Source: a virus. Taken from it: a stretch of DNA of 34,757 nt. Positions 8,309 to 34,733 of the stretch are shown here, piece by piece. Every line of letters starts with the position of its first letter. Position 1 is the stretch's first letter. The stretch covers positions 1-34,757 of the IMG/VR virus record IMGVR_UViG_3300021142_000096; one strand, written 5' to 3'. Made by a program: the position numbers and the translations under genes. The notes below the pieces were generated by a model that did not search any database, was not told the DNA's origin, and saw only the letters and a list, made by a program, of their open reading frames with translations.

Positions 8309-11300
8309 TTGGCTTTATACCTAAAGAAAACATCATCTGCATGGACAACTGTTAAATCAGTATATGTAAAAGCTTCATCCAGTGCTTGGAAAACAGCAAA
8401 AGCAATATATGTAAAAACATCAAGTGGGTGGACTCAGTTTTGGCCAACCTCTTTAAACATATCTACTAAGCCAACTTTGACTGAAACACTTAATTCTGAT
8501 TATACTATTAAGCTAACTGCAACCTCTTATAACTGGAAAACAAACCCAACACTTTCTTATGATTTTCAATGGTCAACAGATGGAACAAGTTGGCAATCTA
8601 TGCAGGGTGGATTTATTTCGACAACTAATCCTGCATCAGGGTCTTATAATACTTACACAATTAACTCTGTTTCTTCAGCTTATGTTTCTCCAAATAAAAA
8701 TAACTACTATCAGTTTGTTGTAAAAGCCACAACCTCAACAGAAGCTGGCATAGCAACTTCTAATCAAGTTTCATTTCAAGGAACAACAGATATCACTGTT
8801 ACTGCATCAGCAGCCTCATCTTCTTCGATTAACGTATCATGGACATCTTCTTTAAATGCAAGTAGATATATGGTTTGGTATCAAAGTTCTTACTCAGGTA
8901 CTTATACAATAATTGGAACAGGTGGAACTTCTATAACGTTAACAGGGTTAACGCCAGATACAAATGACGATCCATTCTATATCTTTGTTCAGCCTTGGAC
9001 GGGATCAAATAATAGCTCTGGGTATTCAGGAAATTACTCTAATACAGTAGCTGTAACTTTGCCATCAGTACCAAATACCCCCACCAACTTATCTATAACA
9101 CCCTTATATGATGGTTTAGGAACTGTAAGAGTTTCATGGACAAACCCAACTATAGGTGCACCTTTTACAAATTTTGTTTTGCAATATATAGATACTACAT
9201 TGCACCCACTTCCTCAAGCACTATCAAATTATTCCACCCTGTCATTAGGTACTACAAGCCCAGTAAATGTTGTTGTTACAACACCTGGCAGCCCAATACC
9301 AAACCATCATTACGATGCCTATATTTATGCTGTAAATTCAGTGGGGTCGGGGCCAATTTCTAATGAAGCTAGTTTTTCAAATGGAATGTTACAAGGATTA
9401 CTTCCAACATTTGGAACTCCTGTAAGTGCACCAACAACTTTAAACATAGGAGGAACAAACTATGCTCCAGCAGTATATGTTCCAATAACAAATTACAGCA
9501 CATCTTTATACCCAACTTGGACTGCATCAGGTACTGCAGGCATTACCTTTATTGCAAATATTAATGGTCAGACATGCGTTGTTACCGAAGGCGGTAGTCC
9601 AGGACAAACAATAACTTTGTATGCTTCCACCTCTGGAAGATCTGGATATTCTTCTGCAACATCAACAATAACAGTAAGAATGCCTCCAGGAACACCTTCA
9701 TATGCAGGAGGAACTTATGAAGGAAATTTAACTATTGATGGTCAAATACAGTGCTCTGTTGCAGGAGCAGATTCTATAAATTATTTTATAGAAAGATCGG
9801 GAACTGGTGTTGCCATATCTGGCTCAGTTTCAGCGGGAACCTACAAAGGGTATGGAAATAATTATTTGTTGTACCAAGGTGCGACAGTAGTATCAGGCTC
9901 TTATGTTGCATATGGAATACCAGTAAATGGTTATTACTATATGGGTGCTACAGGACAAAATTCATATTCTGGAACAGATAGCAATGGTATGAATTATACA
10001 CAGGTTGATCAAAATAATTTTTCTACTATAAATGGCCCATTGGCATATTCTACAGACTTTTTAAGTAATGACTGGTTTTATAATGGACAAGCATCTCTTA
10101 CCGCTCCATCTGGGGGCTCAGCTGCTATTTCTGGTAATACAACTGTGGGTTCAACACTTACATGTACTGTATCAAATGCAAGTGGTAATCCAACTCCCAC
10201 CTATACAATTACTTGGTCTGATGGAGAGACTGGAGCAACTGCTACCCCAGCAGCAGCTGGAAATTACTATGCAACAGTTGTGTTTACAAATAGTCAAGGA
10301 ACACAAACTGTAACTACAAATACAATTACTTTAACAAGCACTATCGGCACATACGGTATCGGCACTATTAGTACAGGAATTGGAACAATTAGTACAGGAA
10401 TTGGAACAATTAGTACTGGTATTGGAACTATCAGTACGGGCATCGGCACAATTAATACTGGTTATGGTATTGGTACAATCGGAACAATCAACACAATTGG
10501 TACAATCGGCACGATTGGAACCATTAATACTGGTTATGGTATTGGTACAATTGGTACAATTAACACTATTGGCACTATTGGTACAATTGGTACAATTAAC
10601 ACTATTGGCACTATTGGTACAATTGGTACAATTAACACTATTGGCACTATTGGTACAATTGGTACAATTAACACTATTGGCACTATTGGTACAATTGGTA
10701 CAATTAACACTATTGGCACTATTGGTACAATTGGTACAATTAACACGGGCTACGGTAACTCGCTTGGATTCTTGACAAATGTAAGAACTCCAGATGGATT
10801 AAAGCCAGCACACTTGGTACAGGTTGGAGATGCTTTGCTTTCTGCTAATATGATTAATGTTCCAGATGTTAATCAAACAGATACCGCAGAGTTAGCTGCC
10901 TGGTCAGCAGATCAAAACCCAGTAGGGGCACAAGATATAACCTATGTAACAGATGTTCACTCAAGAATTACTAATGTTATTGTTGTTATAAATGGAGAAT
11001 ATTTCTCAGATACCCACTATGTAATGGTGCAAAGAGATGGAAAAACAATAATAGTTCCAGCTAATACTATTGATGAAAATAATGATTTAATTTGGTCTTA
11101 TGCAAATCAAGAATGGCAAAAGATTGGTTCTTATGCTATTATTACTTCTGCATACTATGAGGTTATCTCAATTACAACTTCTCCAAATGCATGGTTTTAT
11201 ACTGAAGATATGCTTGTTTATGATTCTCCAGCTCCACTACCAGGAAGTGCAGAAATTCCATCAGCTGCAGTAAATGTAAGCTTAGGTTTCCCAGAGGGAA

Positions 11301-11779
11301 CCCGTGTTCAAATGGCAGACGGATCATATCAAAATATAGAAACAATAACCATCGGTGATGAAATAATGTCTGCTTCTATACCAGGATTTGATAGTTCAAG
11401 TAAAGATCCAGAAAATATGGCATGGGCATCTGAATCAATTGATGGGGCATCAAAAGAAACAACAACTGTTATGAATACGTGGATTATATCTTCTACAAGC
11501 TATCTTCTTATTAATAATGGTTTGCCAAATGGTAATATAGCTGTGGGATCAAATTCATATGTATTTGCAAAGATCAATAATGTATGGCAACTATGTCAAG
11601 CCACTGATCTAGTTGTTGGAGCAAGCTTAATAAATAATGATTTAACTGAAAATATTATTGAAACAATCTCGGTAGTAAACGCAGACACAAATACTATTGC
11701 ACTAGATACTGCTGACTCTGATATTTACTTTATAGAAGGAATGCTTGTTAACAACTTTACCATAGAACATAATGGATAG
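8309..11779 (+). CDS. Tail adhesin: Fn3/Ig modules, GIGT repeat spacer and two degenerate Hint-like domains, 1156 aa
   Basis: I place the start at TTG 8309, directly after the upstream TAA; GGGTGG at 8295-8300 is a plausible ribosome site and no ATG lies near. Residues 1-47 hold three imperfect copies of a W..VK..YVK.SS unit, known at the start of tail adhesins. Residues about 160-350 are Fn3-like and about 595-680 Ig-like (TVGSTLTCTVSNASGNPTPTY). Residues about 681-811 are Gly-Ile-Gly-Thr repeats. Two Hint-like domains follow: about 818-980 (GFLTNVRTPDG...VQVGDALLSA...WFYTEDMLVYDS) and about 990-1156 (GFPEGTRVQMADGSYQNIET...GDEIMSA...YFIEGMLVNN). Both have Gly where self-splicing Hint domains have the nucleophilic Cys, and the usual C-terminal His-Asn is absent, so autoproteolysis is unlikely. 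Probable receptor-binding or display protein. Confidence 0.75.
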   Translation: MALYLKKTSSAWTTVKSVYVKASSSAWKTAKAIYVKTSSGWTQFWPTSLNISTKPTLTETLNSDYTIKLTATSYNWKTNPTLSYDFQWSTDGTSWQSMQGGFISTTNPASGSYNTYTINSVSSAYVSPNKNNYYQFVVKATTSTEAGIATSNQVSFQGTTDITVTASAASSSSINVSWTSSLNASRYMVWYQSSYSGTYTIIGTGGTSITLTGLTPDTNDDPFYIFVQPWTGSNNSSGYSGNYSNTVAVTLPSVPNTPTNLSITPLYDGLGTVRVSWTNPTIGAPFTNFVLQYIDTTLHPLPQALSNYSTLSLGTTSPVNVVVTTPGSPIPNHHYDAYIYAVNSVGSGPISNEASFSNGMLQGLLPTFGTPVSAPTTLNIGGTNYAPAVYVPITNYSTSLYPTWTASGTAGITFIANINGQTCVVTEGGSPGQTITLYASTSGRSGYSSATSTITVRMPPGTPSYAGGTYEGNLTIDGQIQCSVAGADSINYFIERSGTGVAISGSVSAGTYKGYGNNYLLYQGATVVSGSYVAYGIPVNGYYYMGATGQNSYSGTDSNGMNYTQVDQNNFSTINGPLAYSTDFLSNDWFYNGQASLTAPSGGSAAISGNTTVGSTLTCTVSNASGNPTPTYTITWSDGETGATATPAAAGNYYATVVFTNSQGTQTVTTNTITLTSTIGTYGIGTISTGIGTISTGIGTISTGIGTISTGIGTINTGYGIGTIGTINTIGTIGTIGTINTGYGIGTIGTINTIGTIGTIGTINTIGTIGTIGTINTIGTIGTIGTINTIGTIGTIGTINTIGTIGTIGTINTGYGNSLGFLTNVRTPDGLKPAHLVQVGDALLSANMINVPDVNQTDTAELAAWSADQNPVGAQDITYVTDVHSRITNVIVVINGEYFSDTHYVMVQRDGKTIIVPANTIDENNDLIWSYANQEWQKIGSYAIITSAYYEVISITTSPNAWFYTEDMLVYDSPAPLPGSAEIPSAAVNVSLGFPEGTRVQMADGSYQNIETITIGDEIMSASIPGFDSSSKDPENMAWASESIDGASKETTTVMNTWIISSTSYLLINNGLPNGNIAVGSNSYVFAKINNVWQLCQATDLVVGASLINNDLTENIIETISVVNADTNTIALDTADSDIYFIEGMLVNNFTIEHNG
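10370..10453 (+). repeat. Four 21-bp direct repeats (Ser-Thr-Gly-Ile-Gly-Thr-Ile) inside the adhesin
   Basis: Four tandem 21-bp units start at 10370, 10391, 10412 and 10433, each encoding STGIGTI. The first two are identical; the third and fourth differ mainly at third codon positions, showing older copies under protein-level selection. They run straight into the 36-bp array. Confidence 0.9.
10453..10740 (+). repeat. 36-bp tandem array inside the adhesin; last five copies perfect
   Basis: Units of exactly 36 bp begin at 10453, 10489, 10525, 10561, 10597, 10633, 10669 and 10705. The last five (10561-10740) are identical base for base and encode NTIGTIGTIGTI in register; the first three are variants, two of them with TGYG in place of TIGT. 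Nucleotide-perfect copies indicate recent expansion by slippage or recombination. All changes keep the reading frame. Confidence 0.95.
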
Positions 11780-11784
11780 GAAAA

Positions 11785-12369
11785 ATGGAAAAAGAAATAC
11801 TTGCTGAAAAAATTGTAGTCTACAAAAATGTGATCGAAGATGGAATGTCCATAATCAAAGAGATAGAGGAAGGTTTCAAAAGCTTTGGTAGAACATGGGG
11901 TCCATCTATTATAGGTGATTATAGAGAGGTAAATACTGATTTAAGATCATGTACTATTTTAAACCTTACTCCAGATCCAGGTGATTCTAAAGAATTTATT
12001 AAAATGAAGAATGATTTAGACAATAAAATAAACAAAAAAATCATAAAAGCTTTGGCAGATTATAACAAAACTTATGGGTTTCAAACAAAAAGCAAAGAAC
12101 CTTGGGAAGTTTGTAGATATGAAGAAACTCAGAAGCTTATATGGCATAAGGATAATGGCCCAGCTCATCCATGTCAAGTTTCTTATGTTTTATATTTTAA
12201 TGATGATTACGAGGGCGGAGCTATACAGTTCAAGGATCACCTAGACGGATATCCATATCAACCTTTGGCTAACAGTTTAGTTGTTTTCCCATCAAGTGAA
12301 GATTTTATTCATCGTGTACTTCCTACGACAAAGGGGGTTAGGTATGCAGCAATCAGCTTTGCACTATGA
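11785..12369 (+). CDS. 2-oxoglutarate/Fe(II) dioxygenase, prolyl-4-hydroxylase type (copy 1), 194 aa
   Basis: A double-stranded beta-helix oxygenase that would couple 2-oxoglutarate decarboxylation to hydroxylation of a substrate. Visible iron ligands are His121 and Asp123 (WHKD) and His176 (DFIHRVLP); Arg186 (GVRYAAI) fits the 2-oxoglutarate-binding residue. The core signature YFNDDYEGGAIQF lies between. Length matches phage P4H-like proteins. It starts 5 nt after the adhesin gene with AGGAAAA as a ribosome site, and is first of three consecutive paralogues plus a fourth nearby. Substrate is unknown: tail protein side chains, host proteins or a sugar are all possible. Confidence 0.85.
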   Translation: MEKEILAEKIVVYKNVIEDGMSIIKEIEEGFKSFGRTWGPSIIGDYREVNTDLRSCTILNLTPDPGDSKEFIKMKNDLDNKINKKIIKALADYNKTYGFQTKSKEPWEVCRYEETQKLIWHKDNGPAHPCQVSYVLYFNDDYEGGAIQFKDHLDGYPYQPLANSLVVFPSSEDFIHRVLPTTKGVRYAAISFAL

Positions 12370-12919
12370 AGAGCTATCGTTATACCAAGCAAAAGAAGAT
12401 CCAGGATTTCTTATAGATTTGATAGAAAACCTTGTAGAATCATGCCCAGAAATAGAATGGAATCAATCAAAAATAATTGAAAATAGGGACGGGGAGTACG
12501 TTGTCAATAAAGCAATAAGAGACAATTTACTATTTAACCTAGAACCGAGTATGCAGTGTTCTAGTGAAAGTAAAAATAAAATACTTTATCTAGAGAAGAA
12601 GATCCATTCTTTTTTAAATGGTTGTATATCTGATTATTTAAAGTATCATAATGTATCTGTAAATGGTAAAACTTCTTACGAAATATTAAAATATCAAGGT
12701 GGTAATCATCTGTGGTGGCACGATGATATAGGGCATGGAAATAAAGTTTCTTTATTATTTTATTTAAATAGTGATTTTGAAGGTGGAGAACTTGATTTTA
12801 AGTTTATGCTACATCAACCAAAAAAGGGTGATATAATTATATTCCCGTCAAAATATGAACATAGGGTTCTGCCTATAAAGGAAGGGGTAAGGTATTGCAT
12901 CAATGCTTTTATGTACTAA
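12344..12919 (+). CDS. 2-oxoglutarate/Fe(II) dioxygenase (copy 2), 191 aa
   Basis: I chose ATG 12344, which has AAGGGGG at 12331-12337, six bases upstream, over an earlier in-frame ATG at 12281 that would bury deep in copy 1. This still overlaps copy 1 by 26 nt, and the ribosome site falls in bases encoding copy 1's conserved KGVRY. Iron ligands are His126 and Asp128 (WWHDD) and His173 (YEHRVLP), with Arg183 (GVRYCI) for 2-oxoglutarate. The SYEILKYQ and FYLNSDFEGGELDF signatures are present. It is closest by eye to copy 4 (shared SYE.LKY, KKGD..IFPS). Substrate unknown. Confidence 0.85.
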   Translation: MQQSALHYEELSLYQAKEDPGFLIDLIENLVESCPEIEWNQSKIIENRDGEYVVNKAIRDNLLFNLEPSMQCSSESKNKILYLEKKIHSFLNGCISDYLKYHNVSVNGKTSYEILKYQGGNHLWWHDDIGHGNKVSLLFYLNSDFEGGELDFKFMLHQPKKGDIIIFPSKYEHRVLPIKEGVRYCINAFMY

Positions 12920-13459
12920 ATGAATACTAGAATAATCATGCCAGGGGTTGTAGGGTATTCCGACATACTTGAAGATCCAATGGCACTCTTTAGAAAAGCA
13001 GACGAAAACAATTCTTGGTTTCCAGCTACAGCAGCATATCATGGCGATAAGAAAAGCACGGTAATTCCAGATATAAGAACTGGGTTTGAATGTATAGTTA
13101 GTCCCAGTGCAGAAATAGATTTACTTTCAAAGGCTGCAACGGAATGTCTAAAAGACTATAAGACAAAGTTTTATGTTAATATAAAAAGCAGAGAAGGCTG
13201 GAGTATGCTAAAGTATAATCCAGGCGATTTCTTTACCTATCACACGGACGACTCACATGAGCACCCAAGAAGACTATCTTTAGTTTATTATCCAAATGAT
13301 AATTACGAAGGTGGGGAGTTAGAATTCTCAGCTTTTAATACCAGCATAAAGCCGTTGGCAGGTGAACTGATAATGTTCCCTTCTAGCTATTTGTATGTCC
13401 ATAGAGCTAACAGGGTCACCTCGGGTACCAAATACTGTGCTTTGACATTCATGAACTAA
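12920..13459 (+). CDS. 2-oxoglutarate/Fe(II) dioxygenase (copy 3), 179 aa
   Basis: It starts at an ATG immediately after the TAA of copy 2. His108 and Asp110 (YHTDD) and His161 (LYVHRANRV) form the facial triad. The usual arginine is replaced by Lys171 (SGTKYCAL), which can also bind the 2-oxoglutarate carboxylate in this fold. YYPNDNYEGGELEF is the family core. The N-terminus (MPGVVGYSDILEDP) differs from copies 1, 2 and 4, so substrate choice may differ too. Likely co-transcribed with copies 1 and 2. Confidence 0.83.
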   Translation: MNTRIIMPGVVGYSDILEDPMALFRKADENNSWFPATAAYHGDKKSTVIPDIRTGFECIVSPSAEIDLLSKAATECLKDYKTKFYVNIKSREGWSMLKYNPGDFFTYHTDDSHEHPRRLSLVYYPNDNYEGGELEFSAFNTSIKPLAGELIMFPSSYLYVHRANRVTSGTKYCALTFMN

Positions 13460-34580: not shown

Positions 34581-34656
34581 TGGGATGTAGCTCAGCAGGC
34601 AGAGCGTTCGACTGTTAATCGAAATGTCGTAGGTTCGACCCCTACCATCCCAGCCA
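34581..34656 (+). tRNA. tRNA-Asn (GTT), CCA encoded
   Basis: A complete 76-nt cloverleaf: acceptor TGGGATG pairs with CATCCCA, D arm GCTC...GAGC, anticodon stem TTCGA/TCGAA with loop CTGTTAA (anticodon GTT), T arm GTAGG-TTCGACC-CCTAC, discriminator G and genomic CCA. All stems pair perfectly. It lies 8 nt after the previous gene and could help decode Asn, abundant in the tail proteins. Confidence 0.95.
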
Positions 34657-34657
34657 A

Positions 34658-34731
34658 GGTCCGTTAGCTCAGTTGGTTAGAGCGTTGCCCTGTCACGGCA
34701 AAGGTCGTCGGTTCAAGTCCGATACGGATCG
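34658..34731 (+). tRNA. tRNA-Asp (GTC)
   Basis: A 74-nt cloverleaf: acceptor GGTCCGT pairs with ACGGATC (one G-T pair), D arm GCTC-AGTTGGTTA-GAGC, anticodon stem TTGCC/GGCAA with loop CTGTCAC (anticodon GTC), T arm GTCGG-TTCAAGT-CCGAT and discriminator G. CCA is not encoded, unlike the adjacent tRNA-Asn. One base separates the two genes, so they are processed from one transcript. Confidence 0.95.
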
Positions 34732-34733
34732 CT

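Follow-up and report, generated by a model that had tools for sequence, protein, structure and literature searches.

Is a Hint domain that lacks the catalytic cysteine necessarily dead, and if it is not, what would it do at the end of a phage fiber? The question is raised by a tail adhesin gene (positions 8309–11779, + strand, as are the other protein-coding features located below) of the IMG/VR virus record IMGVR_UViG_3300021142_000096, a lake phage sequence whose 34,757 bases are the whole stretch of DNA analyzed here (the window). The gene is one uninterrupted open reading frame with a TTG start, and its product of 1156 amino acids runs from N-terminal "YVK..s.W" repeats through a fibronectin type III (FN3)-like region (Pfam fn3 match at residues 258–355, 1.6e-4, below cut-off) and a low-complexity linker into two C-terminal Hint domains. 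A first-pass annotation, made from the letters of the window, had proposed that both domains are inactive and that the fold has been reused structurally. We hypothesize instead, with a probability of roughly 0.6, that the first domain (copy 1) is a working Ser-type oxyester Hint that releases itself and that the second (copy 2) is a dead descendant of Cys-type Hints. Absence of Cys does not mean a dead Hint domain, and to equate the two is a tempting error that we correct here.

Both adhesin-end domains belong to the Hint superfamily, with matches beyond chance, much as had been proposed, and the profile searches and structure predictions named beforehand as checks returned Hint for each. Kin were supplied by scans of IMG/VR in which a conserved tail-module protein and Hint domains served as queries, and which yielded two sets of relatives; single-protein scans with copy 1 or copy 2 returned no close relatives. 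Copy 2 alone (positions 11285–11755, residues 993–1149) matches Pfam Hom_end_hint (1.5e-5) and PT-HINT (7e-5), both below the curated cut-offs, as well as the intact Hint domain of a related phage (L082; 3e-19) and, in tblastn, the "large intein domain protein" of phage NCTB (3e-5, or 4e-4 with both copies as one query). Copy 1 alone (positions 10760–11224, residues 818–972) matched no Hint profile in Pfam; a three-sequence profile of its kin, which contains no Cys-type domain, matches Cys-type domains (best 5e-16) and, among PDB sequences, the Ser1 Aes123 PolB1 intein (9hth; 5.5e-6) and gp41-1 (4e-4). An 18-sequence profile of the copy 1 family, built without Cys-type members, has four PDB matches at E ≤ 1, all of them inteins or BIL domains (9hth, gp41-1, and 2lwy entries). 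AlphaFold2 models reach a predicted local distance difference test (pLDDT) score of 90.1 for copy 1 and 89.5 for copy 2, each with a predicted template modeling (pTM) score of 0.84, and Foldseek places BIL domains and inteins nearest to both in the PDB (copy 1: 6y75, 1e-6, template modeling score 0.67–0.72; copy 2: best 2lwy, 6e-8), with Hedgehog structures (1at0, 6tyy) among the matches; the AlphaFold2 input alignment mixed both kinds of Hint, so the fold and sequence evidence are partly interdependent. A homing endonuclease remnant is ruled out, as domains of 155–157 amino acids leave no space for one and Pfam returned no endonuclease match.

As the first-pass annotation had recognized, Cys is missing from position 1 of both copies, but the Gly that it put in place of the nucleophile in both is correct for copy 2 (Gly993) and incorrect for copy 1, where ungapped alignments identify Ser818 (codon at positions 10760–10762). 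The earlier register came from the SLGF shared by the two copies, whose Gly was read as standing where Cys had been. When positions are numbered backward from the T-x-V/I-x-x-x-D-G common to both, position 1 of copy 1 (SLGFLTNVRTPDG) is Ser and position 3 is Gly820, and the start of copy 1 parallels those of its kin (SLGGGTYVLTLDG and SVGVNTLIRTVDG) and of the gp41-1 intein C1A structure (ALDLKTQVQTPQG); the same count gives Gly at position 1 of copy 2 (GFPEGTRVQMADG), in agreement with a PI-SceI match. To keep Gly as the copy 1 nucleophile would need a two-residue gap, whereas ungapped alignment against gp41-1, Cys-type kin, and its own family gives Ser. In this register the catalytic positions of copy 1 are Ser818, Ser900/His903 in block B (Ser900-Asp-Thr-His903, S/T-x-x-H; positions 11006–11017), Ser954 at F:4, Tyr971-Asp972 at the end, and Ser973 at +1 (junction at positions 11219–11227), and copy 1 therefore shares with class 1 Hint domains and inteins a Ser at position 1, a block B S-x-x-H, a C-terminal Asp, and a +1 Ser. 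Working class 1 inteins have Cys1 or Ser1, and a C-terminal Asp, Glu, or Gln can stand in for Asn (PMC4031507). A class 3 intein was rejected for either copy: F:4 is Ser954 in copy 1 and Ala1131 in copy 2, and the sole Cys of the two domains, Cys1096, does not lie at F:4.

Copy 1 falls in a clade of Ser-type Hint domains from about 50 uncultured phage contigs, in which the domain is C-terminal, or nearly so, in adhesin-like proteins. Residues were tabulated for 44 distinct Ser-type domains, copy 1 included, and for 11 distinct viral Cys-type domains. All of the 44 have Ser1, a block-B Ser or Thr, and the block-B His; they end in Asp (41) or Glu (3), preceded by Phe (21), His (19), Leu (3), or, in copy 1, Tyr, and the residue before the domain (−1) is Lys (27), Asn (11), His (3), Glu (2), or Phe (1). 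Four further domains (L180–L183), found with scan patterns outside the active site, all have Ser1 and S-x-S-H and end once in HD and three times in YN, so that Ser1, block-B His, and block-B Ser/Thr are each present in 48 of 48 distinct members and the last residue is D, E, or N only; it varies only among residues able to cyclize. Among 26 members below 80% identity to one another (median 34%, minimum 23%), just 6 of 152 alignment columns do not vary at all, two of these being Ser1 and the block-B His. We read invariance of these two residues at a median identity of 34%, together with the D/E/N end, as the pattern of catalysis and not of packing.

The lineage of copy 2 is of the Cys type. The first-pass annotation had held that homologs with a retained Cys and observed cleavage would undo its proposal, and the Cys half of this was found: all 11 viral Cys-type domains have G-C1, T-x-x-H, and H-N, usually with no nucleophile at +1 (I, N, S, A, F, Y, or L). 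The corresponding positions of copy 2 are Gly993, Gly1080/Ser1083 in block B, Ala1131 at F:4, Asn1148-Asn1149, and Phe1150 at +1, which leaves it without a nucleophile at 1 or +1, without block-B TxxH, and with the terminal Asn alone. The terminal pair had been reported as changed in both copies; in copy 1 it is indeed Tyr971-Asp972, and in copy 2 only the penultimate His has become Asn. Because Gly, GxxS, and NN replace the Cys, TxxH, and HN that are intact in its clade, copy 2 is, by its residues, almost certainly catalytically dead, probably either a nonfunctional remnant or a cap with a structural role. Structural reuse of an inactive fold would fit copy 2, whose catalytic positions are lost, and not copy 1, which carries the full Ser-type signature. 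A class 2 intein was likewise rejected for copy 2, with Phe at +1 and block B lost.

In a 46-sequence tree, the Ser-type domains form one clade (100/99) with copy 1, whereas copy 2 groups with the viral Cys-type domains (98/99); their different clades and identity of 18% rule out a recent tandem duplication, and by this phylogenetic evidence the pair unites two lineages. The syntenic adhesin of the related phage L082 (N-terminus 39% identical over 191 amino acids) has a single intact Cys-type Hint at its C-terminus. Cys-type kin carry TINT/TIDT linkers, with ...TINTIDTGGGG directly before Cys1, and the window has ...TIGTINTGYGN directly before Ser818, just after a tandem repeat that encodes a GTIGTINT... 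linker (positions 10358–10746; TRF). The simplest history would be insertion of a Ser-type domain between the linker and a Cys-type domain that afterward lost its chemistry. Compatible with our hypothesis, and concerning copy 2 only, is the further reading that an adhesin once equipped with one active Cys-type Hint gained the Ser-type domain and that copy 2 now drifts without function, for which we see about even odds: its long end branch (1.9), the loss of nearly all its catalytic positions, and the sporadic occurrence of Hint domains among syntenic adhesins fit such decay, but its frame is intact to the natural stop and its sequence still gives the 3e-19 match and a confident model.

A signature-complete Ser-type domain and a dead Cys-type domain in tandem in one chain were found in this window only. 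Contig 3300044695_006284 carries both kinds of Hint in separate genes (L102, L118, L165), and tandem pairs exist outside phages, as in a Thermoplasmata metagenome-assembled genome with two apparently intact Cys-type Hints in a frame of 1907 amino acids (L119:1798-7518). The copies in the window are joined by the linker PAPLPGSAEIPSAAVNVSL (positions 11228–11284, from the translation), and copy 2 is followed by a seven-residue tail, FTIEHNG (positions 11756–11776), where Cys-type kin have 5–10 residues; a frameshift or assembly artifact is ruled out by the single open frame, a gene order as in L082, and tails like those of kin. Degenerate Hint domains occur elsewhere as well: phage NCTB encodes, next to two intact domains, a stand-alone one of 153 amino acids (L009:729-1190) that has no nucleophile at position 1 and has lost block B but retains the terminal HN, and L109:4855-6348 holds a Hint-like domain, not at the end of its protein, in which position 1 is Lys and block B reads T..S.

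Several observations weigh against an active copy 1. It lacks the penultimate His of class 1 domains, having Tyr971 instead; its F:4 residue is Ser954, not Asp; it departs from some noncatalytic residues that the family conserves (E to S, D to A); and its end branch is long (1.51 vs. a median of 0.24). The NX-motif His that is specific to Ser1/Ser+1 inteins (PMC10189870) has no counterpart in the Ser-type family, where columns conserved at ≥90% include no His besides that of block B. The block-B His count is in part ascertained, as that residue sat in one search pattern used for most members; Ser1 and the last residue sat in no search pattern. The chief alternative is that both domains are dead, the fold being retained as a tip module for structure or receptor binding and Ser1, His, and Asp being kept for packing or hydrogen bonding. 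Such a module is what copy 2 resembles, full-length and confidently modeled after losing every catalytic position except the terminal Asn, and degenerate relatives are known (the stand-alone NCTB frame and L109); the missing penultimate His and long branch of copy 1 point the same way. We nevertheless consider it unlikely that copy 1 is dead too, given that Ser1 and the block-B His are invariant and the end is restricted to D/E/N across so divergent a family.

From the computed Hint homology, active-site residues, two lineages, and family-wide conservation, we infer a chemistry, an order of steps, and a biological role for copy 1. Its residues make it most likely a functional oxyester autoprocessing domain, for which cleavage is likelier than splicing. 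After folding, Ser818 would attack the Asn817–Ser818 peptide bond in an N-to-O acyl shift aided by Ser900/His903, and water or some other nucleophile would then resolve the ester, which would separate the 84-kDa shaft from a 36.7-kDa C-terminal part in which copy 2 would be at most a folded cap, or cargo removed by copy 1. In BIL domains, which have no +1 nucleophile, cleavage products dominate, and BILs of type B cleave but do not splice. If the S74 chaperone domains are a guide, copy 1 would likely be a C-terminal folding or maturation module that frees itself from the fiber, a role that fits its C-terminal position and the low-complexity shafts.

In a less likely branch, the ester would pass to Ser973 and Asp972 would cyclize, so that copy 1 (17.2 kDa) would be spliced out as a Ser1/Asp/Ser+1 intein-like domain and the shaft joined to copy 2 in a mature fiber of ~103.8 kDa. 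Copy 1 does have Ser at positions 1 and +1 and a cyclizable terminal Asp, and the +1 residue, which splicing requires as Cys, Ser, or Thr but cleavage does not, is Ser in 25 of the 44 tabulated family members; however, it is M (7), R (5), A (3), T (3), or G (1) in the others, and because M, R, A, or G occurs in many members, splicing cannot be what the family does in general. Kin with tails of 3–7 residues, moreover, leave almost nothing to splice on, and the penultimate His is again missing, which together make excision of copy 1 quite improbable. The idea that Ser-type Hints pass the fiber end to an outside nucleophile (another fiber chain or a host-surface group), so that fibers would be covalently cross-linked or locked to the cell, with dead copy 2 as a recognition or capping part in this phage, is an analogy to the Hedgehog Hint, which transfers its acyl group to cholesterol with a sterol-recognition region as the recognition part, and we regard it as the most improbable of all.

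Autoprocessing at phage fiber tips is known mainly from S74-type chaperones, and if copy 1 and its kin do release themselves, Ser-type, mostly Asp-ended Hints would be a second and unrelated solution. The likeness to the Peptidase_S74 chaperones of tail spikes and fibers is one of function only: the families are unrelated, and copy 1 as an S74 chaperone is ruled out by the lack of any S74 match in Pfam. S74 domains are C-terminal and release themselves, in a serine-dependent manner, from fiber proteins often rich in low-complexity sequence (PMC7824862).

BIL domains (2lwy; 6y75, a BIL2) resemble both copies in their Hint fold, are their best PDB matches, occur in variable, nonconserved proteins, and share with kin the frequent absence of a +1 nucleophile; type A, however, ends in His-Asn, whereas copy 1 ends in YD and copy 2 in NN, and the copy 1 family has Ser1 and ends in Asp, Glu, or Asn after F, H, L, or Y. 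Cysteine-less Ser1 class 1 inteins (Aes123 PolB1, 9hth; PolB16 OarG) share Ser1 and the block-B His and include the closest solved sequence to the copy 1 family, but they interrupt DNA polymerases and have Ser/Thr at +1 and the NX His, whereas the copy 1 family is adhesin-terminal, Asp-ended, and without the NX His. Ser-type domains follow low-complexity linkers in variable adhesins, at or near the C-terminus, and do not interrupt a conserved host protein as inteins do. The Hedgehog Hog domain is also a C-terminal Hint fold that releases an N-terminal domain (1at0 and 6tyy being among the fold matches); its Cys nucleophile, sterol-recognition region, and cholesterol transfer are features shown for neither adhesin copy.

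Cys-type Hints likewise form the C-terminal end of tail or virion proteins in phage NCTB, the Erwinia phages Alexandra and Yoloswag, and the Alcaligenes phage Afa-NA1; these keep the Cys1, TxxH, and HN that copy 2 has lost, and the NCTB "large intein domain protein" is the nearest named relative of copy 2. Such tail-end domains of NCTB and the Erwinia jumbo phages are already in databases as "intein domain protein" or "virion structural protein". The Ser-type family matches no curated NCBIfam model, although 10 of 18 members match PHROG 38766 ("virion structural protein"); the Ser type occurs in no isolated phage of a 50,697-record set, where it has only distant similarity to Cys-type proteins. 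Fold matches in BFVD are uncultured-phage proteins named for PASTA, fibronectin type III, or Hint, by which the Ser type is probably represented there, and the open-access papers searched yielded no account of Ser-type Hints at fiber tips. If our hypothesis is correct, the family would offer intein enzymology natural Hints whose catalytic residues are unusual (Ser1 with no NX His; Asp in place of His-Asn), and the window adhesin, which combines a signature-complete active site with a lost one in the same chain, is a compact test case.

In several phages, two separate genes end in a Ser-type Hint (L159, L160, and L162; L053 and L149, which share one contig). Some Ser-Hint adhesins also have PASTA domains (four in L146:4666-6258, 7.9e-32; one in L153:4645-5613), and these domains, peptidoglycan binders in bacteria, suggest a Gram-positive-type host surface for the two phages concerned. 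Hint domains in Streptomyces proteins (L120, L121, L124, L125, L127, L129) form another Ser1 group; they have TxxH and differ at the C-terminal junction, where HN is followed by a +1 Cys.

The adhesin gene directly follows a gene for a protein of 1044 amino acids, an arrangement shared by its counterpart in related contigs. An upstream protein of 1400 amino acids is a minor-tail relative (PHROG 10359, 2.7e-38), and the neighborhood is therefore a tail module; among annotated phages this protein has only distant matches, to Streptomyces phages. Directly downstream of the adhesin lie three consecutive 2-oxoglutarate (2OG)-Fe(II) oxygenase genes (positions 11785–13459; Pfam PF13640, 6e-14, 6e-14, and 2e-14), and 2OG oxygenases also follow closely after the Ser-Hint adhesins of L144 and L146; it is conceivable that they are tied to hydroxylation of proline, which is common in the shafts of many kin. 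Genes for tRNA-Asn and tRNA-Asp lie at the end of the window (positions 34581–34732).

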